A stretch of DNA of 41,643 nucleotides from an uncultured Bacilli bacterium (lineage in GTDB: Bacteria; Bacillota_I; Bacilli_A; RF39; UBA660): NCBI GenBank assembly GCA_944331865.1, contig CALVIZ010000007.1:1-41643 (forward strand), given 5' to 3'. Positions within the stretch are counted from its first letter, which is position 1. Each line of letters starts with the position of its first letter. Below the pieces are notes generated by a model. It did not search any database, had not been told where the DNA came from, and was given only the letters and a program-made list of their open reading frames with translations. Positions 30,539-39,661 of the stretch are shown one piece after another. The translations under genes and the position numbers were made by a program.

Positions 30539-31072
30539 TTAACCTCCCCAAAGTTTTATAATATAATCTTTAACTTCTTGCCAGTTTTTTACTTTATCGT
30601 GTTTACTAGTTTCATTATCTACTAAAAATTTTAATGTTTTTATTCCATGATCTTTTACTTCATCTAATACCCATTCTTTATCATCTATAAATAAGTCTAC
30701 TTTTTCTTTTTGACATGCTTTATATTTATGATTTTGATTATAAATTATCTTATCATAAATTATATTGTTTTGGCTTAAATACTTTTCTGTGATATGCTTC
30801 GATTTTAAGTAATTTAATGACCCTCTAGCTGTAATAATAACTATTCTAAAACCATTTGCATTTAAGTATTTTATTGTTTCTATAGCTTTGTCTTTTATGG
30901 TGGATTCTTTTTGGATTTTATATAAATATTTATTCAAAAATTTATTATACTCTTTTTTGCTTAAATTGTGATAATCTTTTAAACTTTCATCTTTAATAAA
31001 TTCTTTTAAATATTTATTTGCAGTTTCTTTAGTATCTATCAATGTATCATCTAAATCAATTCCAATCGTCAT
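30539..31072 (-). CDS. HAD-superfamily 5'-nucleotidase-like phosphatase
   Basis: 177 residues. HAD motif [10 protein letters not shown] at the N-terminus, motif II IITARG and motif [15 protein letters not shown]. The fold resembles the NT5C 5'(3')-deoxyribonucleotidase/DUF-type HAD family that dephosphorylates deoxynucleoside monophosphates. Location at the head of the dTMP operon makes a pool-balancing role plausible (inference). GGAGG upstream. Another HAD substrate is possible. Confidence 0.8.
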
Positions 31073-31132
31073 TTAATCCTCCATAAATATTTTATCATAA
31101 TTAAAAAAAATTTAATATACTAAAATTTAATA

Positions 31133-31161
31133 TTGTTAAAACTTTATTAATAGTGTATAAT
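31133..31161 (+). promoter_or_regulatory. Promoter of the PilB-like ATPase gene
   Basis: -35 TTGTTA (31133-31138), 17-bp spacer, -10 TATAAT (31156-31161); the ATG is 33 nt downstream. Confidence 0.55.
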
Positions 31162-31193
31162 AATTTTAGTATAAAGGGTATGTGTGATACAAG

Positions 31194-32492
31194 ATGTTTA
31201 GAGATTTTGATTACGAAAATAAACCTGTTGTTGATATAGTTAATGAAATGATTATTGATGCTATTAACAAAAAAGCATCTGATATTCATTTTGATCCAAC
31301 TGAAAATGAATTAAATGTCCGCATTAGAATAGATGGGGAACTTTTAGAATACGCAAAAGTTCCTAATTTTGTAAAGAAAAATCTTTTAACTAGAATAAAA
31401 ATTATTTCTGGAATGAATATTACAGAAACTAGATTACCTCAAGATGGTGCTATAAAAAATTTAGCAAATACAAATGAGTTAGATCTTCGTGTATCTTCCC
31501 TTCCTATTGTTGATGGTGAAAAGATAGTTATTCGTATTTTGAATTATTCTATGAGTAATAATGGTTTAGAAAATTTAGGCTTATCCGATGAAAATTTAGA
31601 AAAAATTAATAAATTATTAAAAATGCCTAATGGTATTATATTAACTTCTGGTGCTACTGGTACCGGTAAATCAACTACTGTATATGCTATGTTACAAATA
31701 TTAAATACTGTTTCTAAAAATATCATTACTGTTGAAGACCCTGTTGAAATGAAAATACCTGGTATAAATCAAGTTCAAGTTATGAGTGATATAGGCCTTA
31801 CATTTGGAAACACTTTAAGAAGTATTTTAAGACAAGACCCAGATATAATAATGATTGGGGAAATTCGTGATGATGAAACTGCTAGAATTGCTGTAAGAGC
31901 TTCAATAACTGGGCATTTGGTTTTATCGACTATACATACTAACAATTCACTTAATACTATTGAAAGATTATTAGATATGGAAGTTGAAAGATATTTATTA
32001 GGTAGTGCCTTAACAGGTATTATTGCTCAAAGATTGGTAAAAAAGTTATGTCCAAAATGTCGAGCAACTAGACCCACTACTAACTATGAAAAAGAACTTT
32101 TTAAAAAAGTTTTAAATAAAGATATTGATGAAATATATTCACCACAAGGTTGTAGTGAATGTATTAACGGTTATACCGGTAGAACAGCTTTACACGAAGT
32201 TTTAATAATAAATCAAGAAATTAGAGATGCTATTACTAATAATATTAGAAAAAATGAATTAAGACATTTGGTTTATGATAAACATGTTACTAGTTTGCTT
32301 AAAGATGGTTTAGAGAAAGTTGTTGCAGGTATTACAAGTATTGATGAAATATTAAGAGTTATCGATGTTGATGATGACTTTGGAGAAGATGAAGCAGATA
32401 TAAAAGCTGCATTAATTGGTAAACCACAACTTAATACTGCAGAAGAAATATTAGAAATAAATAATGCTCATAACGAAATTGAAACATTATAA
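31194..32492 (+). CDS. Type IV pilus/type II secretion assembly ATPase (PilB/GspE/ComGA type)
   Basis: 432 residues. The N-terminal domain has ASDIHFDPTENELNVRIRIDGEL (the N2 motif). Walker A GATGTGKST is at 153-161, Asp box GEIRDDETA around 223, His box STIHTNNS at 246-253. A zinc-binding CPKC...CSEC (C286, C289, C320, C323) follows, typical of extension ATPases. No PilC-like or prepilin peptidase gene is adjacent; its pilins may be those at 19712-21747. GTGAT precedes the ATG. Powers pilus extension and, with ComEA/ComEC, possibly DNA uptake. Confidence 0.92.
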   Translation: MFRDFDYENKPVVDIVNEMIIDAINKKASDIHFDPTENELNVRIRIDGELLEYAKVPNFVKKNLLTRIKIISGMNITETRLPQDGAIKNLANTNELDLRVSSLPIVDGEKIVIRILNYSMSNNGLENLGLSDENLEKINKLLKMPNGIILTSGATGTGKSTTVYAMLQILNTVSKNIITVEDPVEMKIPGINQVQVMSDIGLTFGNTLRSILRQDPDIIMIGEIRDDETARIAVRASITGHLVLSTIHTNNSLNTIERLLDMEVERYLLGSALTGIIAQRLVKKLCPKCRATRPTTNYEKELFKKVLNKDIDEIYSPQGCSECINGYTGRTALHEVLIINQEIRDAITNNIRKNELRHLVYDKHVTSLLKDGLEKVVAGITSIDEILRVIDVDDDFGEDEADIKAALIGKPQLNTAEEILEINNAHNEIETL

Positions 32493-32521
32493 AAGAAGAT
32501 TATTTTTGATCTTCTTCTTTT
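32491..32521. terminator. Bidirectional terminator between the ATPase gene and vanY
   Basis: AAGAAGAT (32493-32500) pairs with ATCTTCTT (32509-32516), 8-nt loop, with T-rich flanks on both strands. It lies at the 3' ends of both convergent genes. Confidence 0.75.
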
Positions 32522-33123
32522 GTAATTCTTGTTCGTGGTTGTCCTTTTAGCCTTGTGTAGTATTCTTCTAAAGTTATATTTTCATTATATAAATGTGTTG
32601 CTAGTTCAACTCCCACAAAACGATAGTGCCATCTTTCATAACTATACCCAGTTATAGCTTCTTTTCCAAGTGGATATCTTAATATAAAACCAAATTTATG
32701 TGAATTTTCTTTTAACCATATTATTTCTGGATCTTCATCACTAGTTTTTTCTTGATACTTACCATTATCCATATATGCTATATCAAATGCAATACCGGTT
32801 TGATGTTCACTTGAACCTGGTAAAGCTACTTTTTTACATGCTTCTTCATATCCTACTTCATCAACAAATTTATCAAATACTACTTTTTGATATTCATATG
32901 GACGATAACCACTATCTACAATAATTTCTTTTAATCCAGCATCTAAAGCAGCTTGTTGCATTGCCTTAAAATATGGCAATATACTTGCACTAATCATTGG
33001 TTTAAAATTTGGATCACGATAATTGTGAAAATTATTTTCATTGTTATCGGTGATAACTAAATCTTCAGGCACAAAATCACTTGAAAGTAAATTTTGTTTA
33101 TTGACTAATATTGCATAATTCAT
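32500..33123 (-). CDS. vanY: D-alanyl-D-alanine carboxypeptidase, VanY/M15B family, no signal peptide
   Basis: 207 residues. M15B signatures: SGYRPYEYQ, PGSSEHQTGIAFDI (H107, D114 zinc ligands) and YERWHYRFVG (E163, H166). These trim D-Ala from peptidoglycan stems. No N-terminal hydrophobic segment is present at either start, so export is unexplained. The ATG at 33123 is preferred (GGAGATG upstream) over the ORF extension. It is 24 nt downstream of a two-TM protein gene, last in a tight four-gene run. Confidence 0.9.
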   Translation of the reverse strand: MNYAILVNKQNLLSSDFVPEDLVITDNNENNFHNYRDPNFKPMISASILPYFKAMQQAALDAGLKEIIVDSGYRPYEYQKVVFDKFVDEVGYEEACKKVALPGSSEHQTGIAFDIAYMDNGKYQEKTSDEDPEIIWLKENSHKFGFILRYPLGKEAITGYSYERWHYRFVGVELATHLYNENITLEEYYTRLKGQPRTRITKEEDQK

Positions 33124-33147
33124 ATTTTCATCTCCTTTTTTAGACAA

Positions 33148-33837
33148 CTAATTACAAACTCTGATTAATTTCGTTGCTCTGTCTATTAATTTATCATCGG
33201 TTATGCTTTTGTTATATGCTATTATAAAATTTATTAAATCTTCTTTTAAATATTCTCTTTTCCTTAATTCATTATCATATTCTTGTTTTATTAAATATAT
33301 TCTTTCTTCTAAATCTTTTATGCTTTTATACCCTACTAATTCTTTTTTAGTTTTTTTGATATTTTCTAAAATACCTATAACAATAAATAATACTATACAA
33401 AAATCCATGGTATAAATAGTCGCTAATATTCTTTTTATATTTATCGTGCCATCTTCATTTATAAAAGCACTTAAACTATCAGGATTTGAATTTTCTTGAT
33501 AATTTAATTCAAATCTATCAGCACCAACCTGTAATGTATCAAAGGTAAAATCAACAGTTTCATAACTAGCAATGTTTCTTGTAGAAACTTCTGTATATTG
33601 TTGTTCATCTATTTTAGCTGCTATAGAATGGGCTAAAATACCAAAACATACTCCTAATGAAATTGTTGCTCCAATCGCCGCAATTTGCTTTCTAATTTTA
33701 AATTCTAAACTGTTAACTTGGTTTGCTTCTTTTCTTAATTCTTCCCCTTGACAATTAATATCATTTAATCTTTCATTTGCATTTTCTAATTTTTCAATTT
33801 TACTTTTTGCTTCTAAATCATAATTCATATTATTCAT
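33148..33837 (-). CDS. Two-TM protein, tandem family member 3 (short)
   Basis: 229 residues, not recognised. Cytoplasmic coiled-coil N-terminus (about 10-48), TM1 about 51-74, an extracytoplasmic loop about 75-136, TM2 about 137-159, cytoplasmic helical tail 160-229. The tail (EYLKEDLINFIIAYNKSITD, ending KLIRVC) matches the tails of the two upstream genes, so all three are paralogues of one family. GGAG lies 4 nt before the ATG. Cotranscribed with vanY. Confidence 0.75.
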   Translation of the reverse strand: MNNMNYDLEAKSKIEKLENANERLNDINCQGEELRKEANQVNSLEFKIRKQIAAIGATISLGVCFGILAHSIAAKIDEQQYTEVSTRNIASYETVDFTFDTLQVGADRFELNYQENSNPDSLSAFINEDGTINIKRILATIYTMDFCIVLFIVIGILENIKKTKKELVGYKSIKDLEERIYLIKQEYDNELRKREYLKEDLINFIIAYNKSITDDKLIDRATKLIRVCN

Positions 33838-33867
33838 TTCTCTCCATTACTAATTAAAAATATATCC

Positions 33868-35439
33868 TTATATTTTTTCACTTTCTTCTTTTTCTCTAAC
33901 TAATCTTAAATAAGTACTTTTAAACTCTGACATTTCTAATAAAAAACAATATTTATTATAAAATTCCCATAATTTATCTTTAATTTCTTCGACTTCCATG
34001 TTTGCTTTTTTATATTCATTTAATAAATTTAACAAATCTTCTTTTGCTTCTTTTGAATTAATTTTTTTCTTGTAATAGTTTAAATATTCTAAACTATCAC
34101 TAAATGTACAAAAAAATAAAAATGATCCAATAGCTAAAACAAATAAACATATTATAAAATATATATATTCATATTCATTATGGTCTTTAGCATTTTCATT
34201 TAAAGCGCTTGGATATATAACATGTATATTTTCCTCACTTAAATCTTGTGTATATTTCTTTACTTCATAATATTTTTCACTATACAAGTCTTCTGGTGAT
34301 AAAGCTTCTTTTCTTTCTGAATAACTTTGACTTTTTATTCCCAATTTTTCTAAATCTAGCAACAAATAATTTGCTAAATCTTCATAACTTATATGACTTA
34401 CATCATATTCTTTAACATTTCTACTAAAATTAGAATATCTAGTAAACTTTTTCCCCCAAGTATCATATTCATATACATATGTTGCAACTCCATCGTTATA
34501 TAATGGTAATTGATCACTTTCTGTAGTTATATTGCCATCTTTATCATACGTTGTAATACAAGTATCATATAAGCTCACTTTATGAAATGGTTTATATAAT
34601 CCCCAAACAATACCTGTAACTCCACTTAAAACTCCAATAGAACAAAATAAATTTAACAAACCCTTTTTCAAATGTTGTTTTGCTACAAGTTCTTTTTTCT
34701 TTATACCAATAATCTTATAATTTGTTGATTTTATTTCTTCATCTTTTTTTGCCAGTTTTTCTTCTAAAGCTTTTACATTATTTGTAACTTTTTTTACTAT
34801 TTTTTGATCTCTTAATTCTCTTGCTAAAATTTTAAGTAAATCTTCTTCTAAATATGGAAAAATTTCACCTTCGGAAGATTCTCTATTAACAATAATTGAT
34901 ATATCTTCATTTTGAATAAATTTTGTACTTTTACTAACAACTCTATTTAGATAATAACATAATTCTGACGATTGCTTTATATATTTTAGTAATTCTGAAC
35001 TACTTTTTAATTTAAATTCTTCAAGAATTAATATTAATATGCTTTCAAATATAAAATCTATATTGTTTCCTAATTTATTCATATTACTGGTTTTTCTAAG
35101 ATAATTTATTGCATCTTGAACAAATTCATCTAAACTTTCAGTTGTATCAATTTTATTAATATATTTTGCAAAAGTTATAAACATAAATGTATTCCATTCA
35201 CCTGCATTATTTACCATTACATTATATAAAACATCATAATACTTTTTATAAACTGCATCTTTTAAATCTTCTTGGAAAAATTCACTTTTTACTTGAGCAC
35301 ATTCGTTTTCACAGTTACTAATAGTGCTATTTAAAATATTTTCTAATTCTATAAATGGCAATCCATTTTCTTTGTAACTTTCAATTCTTGATCTAATTTC
35401 TGCTATAATTTCTTTATATATTCTTTCAATATTACTCAT
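33868..35439 (-). CDS. Two-TM protein, tandem family member 2 (long)
   Basis: 523 residues, not recognised. A large cytoplasmic helical N-terminus (1-258) that the other two lack, with a coiled coil at about 215-256; TM1 about 260-282; a loop of about 140 residues containing YVYEYDTWGKKF; TM2 about 424-445; helical tail with KDKLWEFYNKYCFLLEM and STYLRLVREKEE. The tail resembles DLINLFEEYGEKL..LCLRLVKEK of the first gene. 30-nt gap to the next gene. Large cytoplasmic addition could be a binding or sensing module (inference). Confidence 0.75.
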   Translation of the reverse strand: MSNIERIYKEIIAEIRSRIESYKENGLPFIELENILNSTISNCENECAQVKSEFFQEDLKDAVYKKYYDVLYNVMVNNAGEWNTFMFITFAKYINKIDTTESLDEFVQDAINYLRKTSNMNKLGNNIDFIFESILILILEEFKLKSSSELLKYIKQSSELCYYLNRVVSKSTKFIQNEDISIIVNRESSEGEIFPYLEEDLLKILARELRDQKIVKKVTNNVKALEEKLAKKDEEIKSTNYKIIGIKKKELVAKQHLKKGLLNLFCSIGVLSGVTGIVWGLYKPFHKVSLYDTCITTYDKDGNITTESDQLPLYNDGVATYVYEYDTWGKKFTRYSNFSRNVKEYDVSHISYEDLANYLLLDLEKLGIKSQSYSERKEALSPEDLYSEKYYEVKKYTQDLSEENIHVIYPSALNENAKDHNEYEYIYFIICLFVLAIGSFLFFCTFSDSLEYLNYYKKKINSKEAKEDLLNLLNEYKKANMEVEEIKDKLWEFYNKYCFLLEMSEFKSTYLRLVREKEESEKI

Positions 35440-35495
35440 AATTCCCCCTATAATTTATTAATTGGTTTATTTTTTTATATCTATTATTATCCACC

Positions 35496-36395
35496 TTATT
35501 CGTTTTTCTCCTTTACTAATCTAAGACATAATTCCCTAATATTTTCATCTTGTAATTTTTCCCCATATTCTTCAAATAAATTAATTAAATCTAATTTTAT
35601 CTCTTCAAGTGATATATTTAATTCTTTTGAGTTAATTAATAAATCATTTAATTCCTGTATTAATCTTTCATATGTTTTTTTATCCCTACTTATGTTTGTC
35701 AATCGGTTTATAAAATGTAGTGATAAATATCCTGTTCCAAATAAATCAATAATTAATAATATTACAAATAGTCCTATTATATTAGATGATTCCCATACTT
35801 TAATAATATCATTATAATCTTCTTGATAATACCTTATTAAAAGTCTTTTAATATCATCATTTTCTGGTTTTATATAAGTACTTATCGTATCAATTAAATT
35901 TCTTTCATATTCTGATAAATCAATAGATAAATAATCACTATTTTCATCTAGTTTTACATCCTCATAACAAACAATATCTCTTTCATACTGTAAAGCATAT
36001 TCTTCTCCAAAGGTAAAAAATTTATCAATTGGTTTTTCTTCCCAAGGTTCATATTCTATAATATCAAATCTATTGCCGTTTTCTAAATAAGGCATATAAT
36101 CTGGTTCTAAAGAAATTATTGTATCCTCTGTAACTAGTTCTCTATTTGTTCTAAAATAATATTGTGTCTGAATTTTTCTATTTACAAGATAACTTGTTAT
36201 ACCAAAACCAATTCCTAATGCTAAAGTACACGCTAGGGCTCTTCTACAAACTTTCTTTTTCTTATTTAAATTTGTATAACGGTTAATTTTAAATGTCAAG
36301 TTTTCTTTATCTTTTTCAAGTTCATCTATTTCTTGCATATTTTCTTGATACATATTATATCTATCTTTAAAATGCTGGTTTATTAAGCTATCCAT
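35496..36395 (-). CDS. Two-TM protein, tandem family member 1
   Basis: 299 residues, not recognised. Cytoplasmic coiled coil 15-45, TM1 50-72, extracytoplasmic loop about 73-204 with IIEYEPWEEKP and many acidic residues, TM2 205-228, cytoplasmic helical tail with ISLEEIKLDLINLFEEYGEK and CLRLVKEKNE. First of four genes in the same direction (gaps 56, 30, 24 nt). No enzyme motif. Membrane partner of the other two, perhaps a hetero-oligomeric complex (inference). Confidence 0.75.
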   Translation of the reverse strand: MDSLINQHFKDRYNMYQENMQEIDELEKDKENLTFKINRYTNLNKKKKVCRRALACTLALGIGFGITSYLVNRKIQTQYYFRTNRELVTEDTIISLEPDYMPYLENGNRFDIIEYEPWEEKPIDKFFTFGEEYALQYERDIVCYEDVKLDENSDYLSIDLSEYERNLIDTISTYIKPENDDIKRLLIRYYQEDYNDIIKVWESSNIIGLFVILLIIDLFGTGYLSLHFINRLTNISRDKKTYERLIQELNDLLINSKELNISLEEIKLDLINLFEEYGEKLQDENIRELCLRLVKEKNE

Positions 36396-36448
36396 AAAAC
36401 CTCCATATAGGTTTATATTTTATCAGTTTATTTCAATAAAATCAATTA

Positions 36449-37147
36449 CTAAAATTCATACTCATTGTTAGATTTATCTACTAAACCAATTTTTACATCA
36501 GCATTTAGTTTGTTTTTTAATATTTCTACAAATTCTTCTTGTAATTTTAACATGTCTTCTTTATTTTCTATAAAAGCATCTAATGGTATAAATATATTTG
36601 TTGTATTTTCGGTAATTTTACTATTTTCTCCCTGACGCCATGTCCATCTTCTAGTTTTGACATCGTTGCCACTTACATATATTATTTCTCCTTTATCTGG
36701 ATGTTCTACGCCTTCACCACCAAAAGGAATAAAATCTTCTGTACCTTTAGCTTCTCTGATTTCAATATCACCACTAAATTTATCAATATCGTGTATTCCT
36801 AATGGAATATTATACTTTAATGATAATGCATTTCCTAAGTCAACTAATGTATTTATATTGGGCATTTCTCCTTTTTTAACTGTTCTTGTAACTAATGCTT
36901 CAATAGAACACATATATTTATTTGGGTTAATATCTAATTTTCTAAAGGCATCACGATAATATGTTATCGGCACACTTTCTTTTATTACTTTTCCTTCATA
37001 ATATTTTTGACAATTTTTAATGCTTGTTTTCAATAATTCATCAATAAATTCATGTTTTTCATGATTATTTATACCTCTAGCAATAATTATTCCAAAAACA
37101 GCATTATCTACTTTTTCAAAAAAGTCTTTACTTACTATAAATTTCAT
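36449..37147 (-). CDS. B3/B4 tRNA-binding-domain protein (PheT-like editing fold)
   Basis: 232 residues of the stand-alone B3_4 family, homologous to the editing domain of phenylalanyl-tRNA synthetase beta. Motifs: YYRDAFRKLDINPNKYMCSI, EALVTRTVKKGEMPNINTLV, LGIHDIDKFSGDIEIREAKG and VKTRRWTWRQGENSKITE. Proposed to deacylate or bind mischarged tRNA; the substrate is not defined. The ATG at 37147 is used; the GTG at 37153 is possible. Divergent from the SpoIVB-like gene. Confidence 0.88.
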   Translation of the reverse strand: MKFIVSKDFFEKVDNAVFGIIIARGINNHEKHEFIDELLKTSIKNCQKYYEGKVIKESVPITYYRDAFRKLDINPNKYMCSIEALVTRTVKKGEMPNINTLVDLGNALSLKYNIPLGIHDIDKFSGDIEIREAKGTEDFIPFGGEGVEHPDKGEIIYVSGNDVKTRRWTWRQGENSKITENTTNIFIPLDAFIENKEDMLKLQEEFVEILKNKLNADVKIGLVDKSNNEYEF

Positions 37148-37200
37148 ATACACACTTCTTTCTTTTACTATTATACAATAAATTGCCTATTTTTGGTAGC

Positions 37201-37251
37201 AACCAATTATTGGTTTATTATATTTTCTTCTTATATCCATAATAATTATGG
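37201..37251. promoter_or_regulatory. Two perfect palindromes upstream of the SpoIVB-like gene
   Basis: AACCAATTATTGGTT (37201-37215) and CCATAATAATTATGG (37237-37251) are both 7-bp-armed inverted repeats with a 1-nt centre, 36 bp apart. They lie between the divergent B3/B4 and SpoIVB-like genes and could be operators. AT-rich DNA yields such repeats by chance, so confidence is modest. Confidence 0.4.
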
Positions 37252-37263
37252 AATGGTGATTAT

Positions 37264-38238
37264 GTGAAAAAATTAAAAATATTTATAATATCATTGTTAC
37301 TATTAATTCCTATTAATGTATTTGCATATTCAGATTTTATAATTCCCGGTGGTGAAACATTAGGAATTGAAATAAATAGTAAAGGAATTATGGTTATTGG
37401 TTTTTATCAAATAAATGGTAAATTTAATAAAGGTAATCCCGAATTAAAACCTGGAGATTATATCACCAAGGTTAATAATATTGATGTTTATACTGTAGAT
37501 GATTTAACAAGTGTAATTGAAGATAATATTAGTAAATCCGAAGTAAAAATTACTTATAATCGAAACGGAAAAATTAAAACTAGTAATTTGGAGTTAGTTA
37601 AAGATGATAATATTTATAAAACTGGATTGTATGTTAAAGATTCAATAACTGGTATTGGTACTTTATCATATATTGATCCAGAAACTAAAGTTTTCGGAGC
37701 TTTAGGACATGAAATAGTTGAATCAAATACTAAAAGTACGGTTGAAATTAAAAGTGGTGTAATTTTTAGAAACTACATTACAAGTATAGATAAAAGCACC
37801 AATGGAATACCTGGCAGTAAAAATGCTAAATTTTATTACGATACAACTTATGGTAGAATTATAAAAAATACCAATGTCGGTATTTATGGTATATATGATG
37901 CAATGTTACCACAAAAAGATTTAATCGAAGTAGCTGAACCAAATGAAGTCAAAATTGGTAAAGCTTATATTGAAACTGTACTTAATGGTGAAGAAATAAA
38001 ACAATATGATATCAATATAACTAGTATTAATGAAAATGCCGATATAAAAAATATTTCTTTTGAAATTACCGATGAAGAATTGTTAGATAAAACAGGTGGT
38101 GTTGTTCAAGGTATGAGTGGTTCACCAATTATTCAAAATAATAAAATTATAGGAGCTGTAACCCATGTAGTTATAGATAATCCAAGTAATGGTTATGGTA
38201 TATTTATTACTACAATGTTAGAAGAAGGAGAAAAGTAA
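37264..38238 (+). CDS. spoIVB: SpoIVB-family serine protease (S55) with PDZ
   Basis: 324 residues. Signal peptide or anchor 1-21 (KIFIISLLLLIPINVFA), a PDZ domain at about 30-110 (PGGETLGIEINSKGIMVIGF, LKPGDYITKVNNIDV), then the S55 peptidase with GIGTLSYIDPETKVFGALGH (H149), DKTGGVVQGMSGSPIIQ (S285 nucleophile) and GAVTHVVIDNPSNGYGIFI. In Bacillus SpoIVB signals from the forespore to activate SpoIVFB. Neither recN nor spo0A is adjacent. It starts at GTG after GGTGAT. Whether it still serves sporulation here is unknown. Confidence 0.92.
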   Translation: MKKLKIFIISLLLLIPINVFAYSDFIIPGGETLGIEINSKGIMVIGFYQINGKFNKGNPELKPGDYITKVNNIDVYTVDDLTSVIEDNISKSEVKITYNRNGKIKTSNLELVKDDNIYKTGLYVKDSITGIGTLSYIDPETKVFGALGHEIVESNTKSTVEIKSGVIFRNYITSIDKSTNGIPGSKNAKFYYDTTYGRIIKNTNVGIYGIYDAMLPQKDLIEVAEPNEVKIGKAYIETVLNGEEIKQYDINITSINENADIKNISFEITDEELLDKTGGVVQGMSGSPIIQNNKIIGAVTHVVIDNPSNGYGIFITTMLEEGEK

Positions 38239-38258
38239 TAAGCTTTTCTCCTTAATTT
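38225..38258. terminator. Hairpin between spoIVB and surface gene copy 2
   Basis: AAGGAGAAAAG (38225-38235) and CTTTTCTCCTT (38243-38253), 11-bp stem, 7-nt loop. It overlaps both gene ends. T-tracts are imperfect on both sides. Confidence 0.55.
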
Positions 38259-39649
38259 ATGCGAATTGGGTCACTATTTGTCCCAGATCCACTGACATAA
38301 GTTGTGGAAGATGCTAGATAGAAGCAAGGTCGAATAACTGTTGGAATCGCTATGTTAATACTAGAATTAGATACATACCCTTGATACATAATTAAAAAAG
38401 CACTATTACTGCCACTGCTATCTCTTGATATAGACCACTCATTAATATAACTAGAATAATTAGACTTTAATAATATCCAATTTGAATTTAATGCTAATCT
38501 ATAATCATTTTCGCTACTATTCCATCCTGGATATGTCCAATATGTATTTGTGGCTCCGTAATAATAATCACTTACATACATTAATCCTATTTTCATACTA
38601 TCTGTTGTACTAGCTGAACTACTTCCGACTTCATAGTTATAAGCTGTTTTTGCTCCATTTCCATATCCATTAGCAGAAGTCATTCCTCCAACTTTCCATG
38701 TGTGTGTTGCTATTTTATTTTGCCATGTTGCACTTAAAGAATTGTAATATGTTGTATTAAGCGCTAGCCTTACATCGGAATTACTCCATGTATTATCACC
38801 GCCTATTTTCCAACTTTCGTAACTATAATTAGATGCTTTAATTAGTTTTACTTCACTACCAAATACTCCTATTATTCGATATAAGTTATCTTCTGGACAT
38901 GTTGCTGCATCTGACCCAAAACATACATAATTATTTGGGTCTGCCCCGGCATATCGATATGAGTTATCTTCAGCACTATTTGCTAAACTACTTGTATGAT
39001 AATATATTCCATTTGAACCTTGGCTTGTATATAAACTTTTTATATATTCTGCTAATAATACTGTATTTTCTGTTTCAGCACTTGTTGTATATACACTTGA
39101 ATCTACTCCACTTGTATCTGTTACATATACTTTTATTGTATATGTTGTTCCTTTATTTAGTCCACTAAATGTATAGGTATTAGCTGTACTACTTGTAAAC
39201 TTTCCATTATTTATTGAATAATAATATGTTGTTACATTATTTGTTCCTCCACTGGCACTTACACTTATACTTATTGATGATGTTGAAGTATCTGCTACTG
39301 TTACATTATTTACTACAGGATTTATATATTTATCAAAATAGACATAACATTTATCTGATTTGTTTGATTTTAAAGTTATGGTTTTTAATTCATCATTCCA
39401 AATTAATTCGTCACCATTTTCACATTCACTTAAAACATTATTAAATATATAACCTGTCTTTGGCCATAAACTAGAAGAAGATTTTTGATAAGTTCCATCA
39501 TCTTGTTCTAACATTAAAGTTAAAAAGCCATTTGTATTTACTTTTGTTTCAGTATTTTTTATTTCATCTTTTTCTTTTGATATATAAATATAAATTAATA
39601 CCGATACTATTAATAGAACACTAAATATTACTACATACTTCTTTTTCAT
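38252..39649 (-). CDS. Membrane-anchored surface protein with FN3 domain and CX7C ectodomain (copy 2)
   Basis: 465 residues, complete. N-terminal membrane anchor (about 5-24), a linker, a domain with LWPKTGYIFNNVL and CYVYFDKYIN (about 40-110), an FN3-like domain at about 110-193 (FSGLNKGTTYTIKVYV), then the ectodomain at about 227-465: YRYAGADPNNYVCFGSD, CX7C, CPEDNLYRIIGVF, HTWKVGG, IGLMYVSDYYYGA, VIRPCFYLAS and a terminal SGTNSDPI. Similar domains are seen in many uncultured Bacillota surface proteins (reminiscent of DUF6273-type domains, not verified). The ATG at 39649 is chosen because GGAGAG lies 6 nt upstream. Divergent from the XRE gene at 39760; strongest sigma-A promoter in the window. 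Confidence 0.88.
   Translation of the reverse strand: MKKKYVVIFSVLLIVSVLIYIYISKEKDEIKNTETKVNTNGFLTLMLEQDDGTYQKSSSSLWPKTGYIFNNVLSECENGDELIWNDELKTITLKSNKSDKCYVYFDKYINPVVNNVTVADTSTSSISISVSASGGTNNVTTYYYSINNGKFTSSTANTYTFSGLNKGTTYTIKVYVTDTSGVDSSVYTTSAETENTVLLAEYIKSLYTSQGSNGIYYHTSSLANSAEDNSYRYAGADPNNYVCFGSDAATCPEDNLYRIIGVFGSEVKLIKASNYSYESWKIGGDNTWSNSDVRLALNTTYYNSLSATWQNKIATHTWKVGGMTSANGYGNGAKTAYNYEVGSSSASTTDSMKIGLMYVSDYYYGATNTYWTYPGWNSSENDYRLALNSNWILLKSNYSSYINEWSISRDSSGSNSAFLIMYQGYVSNSSINIAIPTVIRPCFYLASSTTYVSGSGTNSDPIRIN
38564..38612. repeat. 49-nt exact direct repeat of 4-52
   Basis: Identical to positions 4-52 in the same orientation; part of the paralogous surface genes. A second exact 62-nt match is 39121-39182 with 606-667. 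Confidence 0.85.
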
Positions 39650-39661
39650 ACTACTCTCCAT

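Follow-up and report, generated by a model that had tools for sequence, protein, structure and literature searches.

The window analysed here is a stretch of 41,643 nucleotides, contig C7 of the 1.19-Mb draft genome (57 contigs) of an uncultured Bacilli bacterium; that genome is labelled G000, and the G, L and g labels used below denote the genomes, loci and genera compared in the analysis. On the minus strand of the window lie three adjacent genes whose products, of 299, 523 and 229 amino acids (aa), were confirmed by sequence comparison to be one homologous, tandem and undescribed family of membrane proteins. Firm matches to the family are found in one GTDB-level family only, and its presence there is patchy. 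Judging from sequence patterns, we tentatively read these proteins as accessory, diversifying membrane proteins that may be receptor- or immunity-like, and we give this reading a probability of about 0.38. The array and the parts of its middle protein are as follows (TM, transmembrane segment).

35496..36395, minus strand: 299-aa family member, short form (cytosolic helix, TM1, ectodomain of ~140 residues, TM2, helical tail)
33868..35439, minus strand: 523-aa family member, long (usual) form
34795..35439, minus strand: 523-aa protein, residues 1-215, cytosolic helical N-domain with Glu141, invariant in 34/34 long members
34603..34671, minus strand: 523-aa protein, residues 257-279, TM1
34165..34590, minus strand: 523-aa protein, residues 284-425, acidic ectodomain with invariant Arg340 and near-invariant Tyr325
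34102..34164, minus strand: 523-aa protein, residues 426-446, TM2
33889..34092, minus strand: 523-aa protein, residues 450-517, cytosolic helical tail, the part common to all three proteins
33148..33837, minus strand: 229-aa family member, short form with a loop of ~66 residues

The original prediction, made from the window alone, held that these open reading frames, separated by short gaps and followed by a vanY gene, encode proteins of one two-TM design with homologous tails, belonging to no recognised family, and each of these points was borne out. The three frames lie on the minus strand where it placed them, the coordinates agree with its gaps of 56, 30 and 24 nt, and each protein has two hydrophobic segments. 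When a set of 14 long sequences was compared with a set of 11 short ones, hhalign gave an E value of 4e-39 over 285 columns comprising the coil, TM1, ectodomain, TM2 and tail. The tails do align: profile-profile comparison of the 229-aa set (three sequences) gave E 8e-11 over 45 columns with the short set and 6e-8 over 58 columns with the long set, in both cases over the tail. A held-out hidden Markov model, from which all three 229-like members had been removed, scored the 229-aa protein at 44.4 bits, versus 14.1 for the best of 300 shuffles that kept each segment's composition. Even single-sequence BLASTP linked the 299-aa protein to the 523-aa protein (E 1e-5) and to the 229-aa protein (E 2e-5).

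Searches of Pfam, NCBIfam, PADLOC, PHROGs and the PDB gave no match for the family. With 53 members as queries, no Pfam family was found in more than two and no NCBIfam family in more than one; with 14 members, no PHROGs family was found in more than one. PDB profile searches reached E 0.004 at best, many of the matches being to designed or helical proteins. Weak Pfam hits to DUF1722, DUF4179, SieB and a ZapG-like family (the last in one member, at 3.2e-5) were dropped as not common to the family. The FESNov catalogue reportedly collects novel gene families of uncultivated taxa that are lineage-restricted and have no reference-library matches; the present family is likewise lineage-restricted and unmatched in the libraries searched.

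An iterated search of the open reading frames in the loci examined found 55 members, spread over 29 loci; 19 further stretches raised the total to 82 family hits (counting fragments) from 48 loci and 17 genera. Both TM segments were located in 54 of the 55 members, the remaining one being a contig-end fragment, and by hydropathy alone some members have a third hydrophobic stretch. Median segment lengths in the 34 long members are 229 residues for the N-domain, 46 for the coil, 23 for TM1, 130 for the ectodomain, 21 for TM2 and 76 for the tail. Within 15 residues, the mean count of Lys plus Arg is 5.15 before TM1 and 2.78 after it, and 1.54 before TM2 and 2.67 after it; by such positive-inside counts, both termini are predicted to be cytosolic in 44 of 54 members. 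The ectodomain is acidic (family mean net charge -0.107 per residue) and cysteine-poor. Mean pairwise identity is only 15-23%, depending on the region, and yet Glu141 of the N-domain and Arg340 of the ectodomain are invariant in all 34 long members and Tyr325 is kept in 33. AlphaFold2 models of the 523-aa protein (6 sequences; mean predicted local distance difference test score, pLDDT, 42.8) and of the ectodomain (4 sequences; mean pLDDT 33.0) were too poor for use.

A 258-residue cytoplasmic domain had been predicted to be an extra of the middle protein, which proved not to be so, for most members outside the window's clade carry the N-domain. That clade comprises six species (G000, G016, G022, G012, G019 and G001), and the short forms without the N-domain, such as the 299- and 229-aa proteins, occur mainly within it, with a 273-aa one in G174 of another genus. 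Given that the long form is common outside the clade, the short proteins have probably been reduced by loss of the N-domain and the long form is probably ancestral, as the distribution and the family tree suggest. Intermediate layouts also occur: in one G019 member the core follows directly on roughly 38 N-terminal residues of the long form, and three members, two from G128 and one from G255, have the N-domain but loops of only 23-40 residues.

Tandem copies occur at 14 of the 29 loci, on the same strand and with gaps of -20 to 96 nt. The longest string is in G255, where one 11-kb stretch (L230:406-11197) holds six hits, interrupted once by an unrelated 348-aa gene. The same genome has about a dozen family hits on four contigs: two, three and six in the stretches read (L229, L133 and L230, the six being those of L230), and one more on C28.

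In the window's genus, 12 of 30 genomes match the short-form profile and G007 is added by the long-form profile; a match in G021 (E 7e-4) was judged to be chance, there being no match with the profile. Across the GTDB-level family, the long profile at 1e-3 picks out 19 of 291 genomes, two of them (G315 and G245) by weak and doubtful matches. An order-level search of 337 genomes found matches in at least 42 at E 1e-4 and in at least 36 at 1e-9 or better (left out of the 36 are G092, G067, G370, G394, G216 and G082); these counts are lower bounds, only some candidates per genome having been scored, and all genomes listed belong to the window's own GTDB-level family, so the search says little on other families. 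A class-wide draw of 395 genomes, whose share from outside the family is unstated, gave only two weak hits outside it, at E ~8e-5 and with internal stops, and the single 523-aa protein had no match in 23 genomes of other families of the class. A scan of named genomes returned one locus, on a G016 contig. Some matches within the family also carry internal stops. In the family tree, the G015 copies group with four other genera (support 100/97) and three G011/G029 copies group with g28 (99/98); members from the window's genus are scattered among other genera in several well-supported groups, and the nearest kin of a copy is often another from the same genome. Such a tree could arise from local duplication combined with either transfer between genera or ancient paralogy, the long branches leaving the details unsure.

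Comparison of the window with species G016 revealed a tract in which the two are nearly identical. Synonymous divergence (dS) is 0.07 for the 523-aa gene, versus 0.36-0.77 for pulE, vanY, the 229- and 299-aa genes, B3/4, HAD and ruvB; spoIVB, which was misaligned, was left out of the rate comparison. The tract runs from the start codon of the 523-aa gene at 35439 to 33803, within the start of the 229-aa gene, and contains one island that is diverged.

33803..35439, minus strand: allele-replacement tract in common with species G016, 19 differences in ~1451 nt outside the island
34905..35090, minus strand: diverged island within the tract, codons 117-179 of the N-domain, 37 differences in 186 nt

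The 186-nt island lies in the part of the 523-aa gene that encodes the cytosolic N-domain. If the assemblies are right, the tract is a gene replacement by homologous recombination. The ratio of nonsynonymous to synonymous divergence (dN/dS) is 0.24 for the 299-aa gene, 0.34 for the 229-aa gene and 0.41 for the 523-aa gene, and 0.04-0.16 for pulE, ruvB, B3/4 and vanY. The high divergence, together with the losses described below and the matches with internal stops, would be expected of genes that are confined to one lineage, matter little to fitness and undergo near-neutral turnover by duplication and decay. The two residues invariant in 34/34 long members, the dN/dS values well below 1, and the retention of the two-TM architecture in most members across 17 genera argue otherwise, and we regard such turnover as quite unlikely.

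One subfamily has a partner. At G134, G091 (contig C27) and G321, a divergent family member lies head-to-head with a gene for a predicted lipoprotein of ~240 aa, 104-126 nt away; its lipobox was read by eye, it has an HVHxYT motif, and no Pfam family matches it above threshold. A search seeded with these three lipoproteins detected the lipoprotein family in 25 of 386 genomes. The closest four loci come from four genera and comprise the three seeds plus G269, which was found independently; at each of them the lipoprotein gene is head-to-head with a family member.

L228:5358-6080: lipoprotein/two-TM pair locus
L225:7883-8626: lipoprotein/two-TM pair locus
L226:5014-5745: lipoprotein/two-TM pair locus
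L236:1477-2256: lipoprotein/two-TM pair locus

The other 24 lipoprotein match records, at 23 places, have no family member within the flank read, of up to 1.5 kb; two rows from G208 are pieces of one gene. No relatives of the lipoprotein were found in phages. The head-to-head loci support a predicted working pair of ectodomain and surface lipoprotein in that subfamily. Such a partner, along with the invariant Glu141 and Arg340 and the near-invariant Tyr325, would also suit a transmembrane signalling scaffold with no role in conflict, in which the ectodomain reads an envelope or nutrient cue and the helical N-domain passes it on. For a scaffold of this kind, the patchy presence, site loss and copy-number variation of the family are awkward, as is the finding that none of the families represented among the 343 neighbour genes of the 48 loci is common to more than three of the 17 genera; we consider it an unlikely explanation, if one to be taken seriously.

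The surroundings of the array vary within the genus. In the window, the array is flanked by two genes in the same direction.

36449..37147, minus strand: stand-alone B3/4-domain protein, 232 aa (Pfam PF03483, E 1.4e-31), opening the co-directional run
32500..33123, minus strand: VanY/LdcB-type M15 peptidase, 207 aa from its ATG (Pfam VanY 4.2e-35; PDB YodJ E 4.5e-36)

The predicted layout of array and vanY thus stood, and the start of the run did not, for it lies one gene earlier, at the B3/4 gene, which we take to be of the tRNA-editing type. Promoter-like sites near the array are at chance level only, no terminator-like site was found there, and no Rfam family was found in 31000-38500. The B3/4 gene precedes the array in five of the six clade species, the G022 contig ending within the array; its matches, in 5 of 30 genus genomes, all accompany an array at the window's site, and in G019 only 51 residues are left, at a contig end. 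The stretch is flanked by both pulE and spoIVB in G000, G016 and G001, and the other three clade contigs show one of them. G011, G029, G027 and G006 have arrays of one to three genes beside alpha/beta-hydrolase, DUF6320 and NUDIX-like genes and a gene of 293-411 aa that has no Pfam match; the G011 and G006 arrays also lie between pulE and spoIVB, which the shorter G029 and G027 contigs do not reach. In 16 further genus genomes there is no array in the stretch read, although spoIVB falls outside five of those stretches; pulE and spoIVB are directly adjacent in five of the 16, and in five the hydrolase block lies between them. Two hydrolase-block genomes, G002 and G028, carry a truncated M20-type peptidase (161 and 74 aa), and G006 has a full-length one, of 442 aa, two genes from its array; the truncated gene reads as a putative scar of array loss. 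At 38252-39661 the window also holds a gene for an exported-looking 469-aa protein with weak fn3 and DUF6273 matches, relatives of which recur near the array in several genomes of the genus.

Elsewhere, some sites are common to two genera, for example to g81 and g99, or to g59 and g103, where suf genes are involved. The chromosomal neighbourhood found in the window's genus recurs in another genus, g117, where a family member (L214:4595-7047, L215:3829-6222) adjoins spoIVB and proS. At L119, L213, L125, L135, L214, L215, L127 and L220 (loci assigned by eye), genes for class II aminoacyl-tRNA synthetases lie no more than two genes from a member; matches among the 129 neighbours scanned include six to tRNA-synt_2b and two to tRNA-synt_2. 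The window's array for its part adjoins the B3/4 gene of the tRNA-editing type, and the association may be chance.

The 129 neighbour proteins were also compared with defence models, 71 PADLOC families being matched. Among the best 25 of these, SspA/DndA has three members, HIT-type, RTasMBL and HamA have two each, and AbiLi, MzaA and some PDC models are hit once; the SspA/DndA matches are probably ordinary cysteine desulfurases. The AbiLi-like neighbour and the few others that match PADLOC models among these 25 lend something to the idea of a membrane anti-phage protein, encoded by single genes or strings and acting by exclusion or abortive infection, as do the patchy presence, the duplications, the one replacement tract and the variable interval in the genus. 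It is set back by the lack of any PADLOC model for the family itself (14 members) and by the neighbours, for the commonest Pfam families among them, in the best 25 of 113, are housekeeping ones, and some members sit beside rpsB-tsf. We doubt this explanation strongly.

The reading that we prefer, of accessory, diversifying, receptor- or immunity-like proteins, rests on the patchy presence, the strings of paralogues, the replacement and the loss, which give the family its resemblance to immunity repertoires. The copies of an array would together serve as a repertoire of receptor- or immunity-like proteins. The ectodomain would bind a surface protein, either an envelope lipoprotein or an incoming antagonist, and the coil and tail helices would hold homo- or hetero-oligomers together. 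Binding might then block the antagonist at the membrane or be relayed to the cytosolic N-domain, and tandem duplication and homologous recombination would be a continuing source of change in the repertoire. A fuller version of this proposal is a new class of diversifying receptor/immunity proteins, occurring as single genes or in strings of up to about six and moved between the genera of the family, in which the ectodomain docks with a lipoprotein at the surface (in one subfamily a dedicated partner that moves together with it) and the cytosolic helical domain executes or relays the response; so detailed a version we consider rather improbable.

Known immunity genes of the Firmicutes type VII secretion system (T7SS) offer a comparison. 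The genes esaG, tsaI/DUF443 and tipC form strings of tandem, non-identical paralogues that change in copy number, with homologous recombination in esaG and tipC and little among tsaI genes, and TsaI is a membrane protein with five predicted TM segments (PMC9484751). The present family is alike in its tandem, non-identical paralogues (14 of 29 loci) and copy-number change, and it differs in having a large ectodomain and a cytosolic N-domain, with no toxin recognised beside the arrays, and in having two TM segments versus the five of TsaI. DUF443 itself was absent among the nine families matched at E 0.01 by any of the 53 members.

Several results weigh against an immunity-like role. No toxin, secretion or phage partner was recognised by eye beside the arrays, and the best 25 of the 113 Pfam families listed for the 129 neighbours include no toxin. 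Among the best 25 of the 71 PADLOC families, none recurs often enough among the neighbours to mark a defence island; against the family itself (14 members), PADLOC gave two models, with one member each and a best E of 0.036. With the queries tried, no relative of the family was found in phages, plasmids or viral contigs. The lipoprotein has no match at threshold in G000, so that the pairing is not seen in the window's own genome. The replacement tract is unique among 13 comparable member pairs in the genus, and mis-assembly of a draft genome is still conceivable as its source. The dN/dS values, being below 1, give no indication of positive selection. Nor is rapid change confined to the array, since the neighbouring HAD gene (dN 0.151, dN/dS 0.20) has changed as fast as the 299-aa gene (dN 0.130).

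The original prediction had proposed that the proteins form a heteromeric envelope complex, which with VanY might sense or organise the wall. Its undescribed homologous tandem membrane family stands; the wall role does not. In its favour, vanY follows the array in 6/6 species of the window's clade, mostly after short gaps (~780 nt in G022). VanY has a TTG start at 33147 in the open reading frame listing, an ATG at 33123 and its stop at 32500, and it aligns with the YodJ and LdcB structures in the PDB. It keeps the zinc motif of M15 peptidases (described in PMC4087270), SEHQTGIAFD and ERWH aligning with the H...D...H and Glu of the M15/LAS fold in YodJ. In family and zinc motif it thus resembles LdcB/YodJ/VanXY-type peptidases. 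By hydropathy, however, and with an in-frame upstream extension considered, no N-terminal hydrophobic segment is seen in any of the 18 VanY orthologues of the genus, such as would belong to the signal peptide, lipobox or TM anchor of the extracytoplasmic carboxypeptidases LdcB and VanY; two other VanY-type proteins of the same genome do have an N-terminal TM. The usual neighbour also differs from that of LdcB/YodJ/VanXY-type enzymes. In 12 other genomes of the genus the orthologue is located elsewhere, and in nine of these (L106, L107, L108, L109, L110, L111, L112, L113 and L115) its start overlaps the end of a 403-421-aa, aminopeptidase-like gene; the one such gene scanned is a Peptidase_M29 (E 6e-112).

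The signal-less VanY and the aminopeptidase-like gene may possibly form a cytosolic pair for recycling peptidoglycan peptides, and given the missing N-terminal segment and the overlap with an aminopeptidase-type gene, cytosolic peptide recycling is the more likely role for VanY than wall trimming. Conserved synteny with vanY had also been expected. Outside the six-species clade the array genes are instead scattered without it: no vanY lies beside the arrays of G011, G029, G027 and G006, and the members in 16 other genera occupy different sites, where no vanY family is a recurrent neighbour. Because VanY shows no export segment, is mostly paired with an aminopeptidase-type gene elsewhere in the genus and has no synteny with the array across genera, a wall link through it was rejected, and the envelope complex built on it is very unlikely. 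The best explanation is that VanY and the B3/4 protein are neighbours of the array by local synteny, not working parts of it.

In sum, a protein family that matches nothing in the libraries searched is spread over 17 genera within one bacterial family. Other systems are already known to have strings of paralogues that change, membrane proteins among them, so the kind is not categorically new. With its copy-number change, its allele replacement and a subfamily paired with a lipoprotein, the family is a testable candidate for a part in kin or phage conflict, and if it should be a family of sensors instead, it would still represent a new two-pass receptor architecture.

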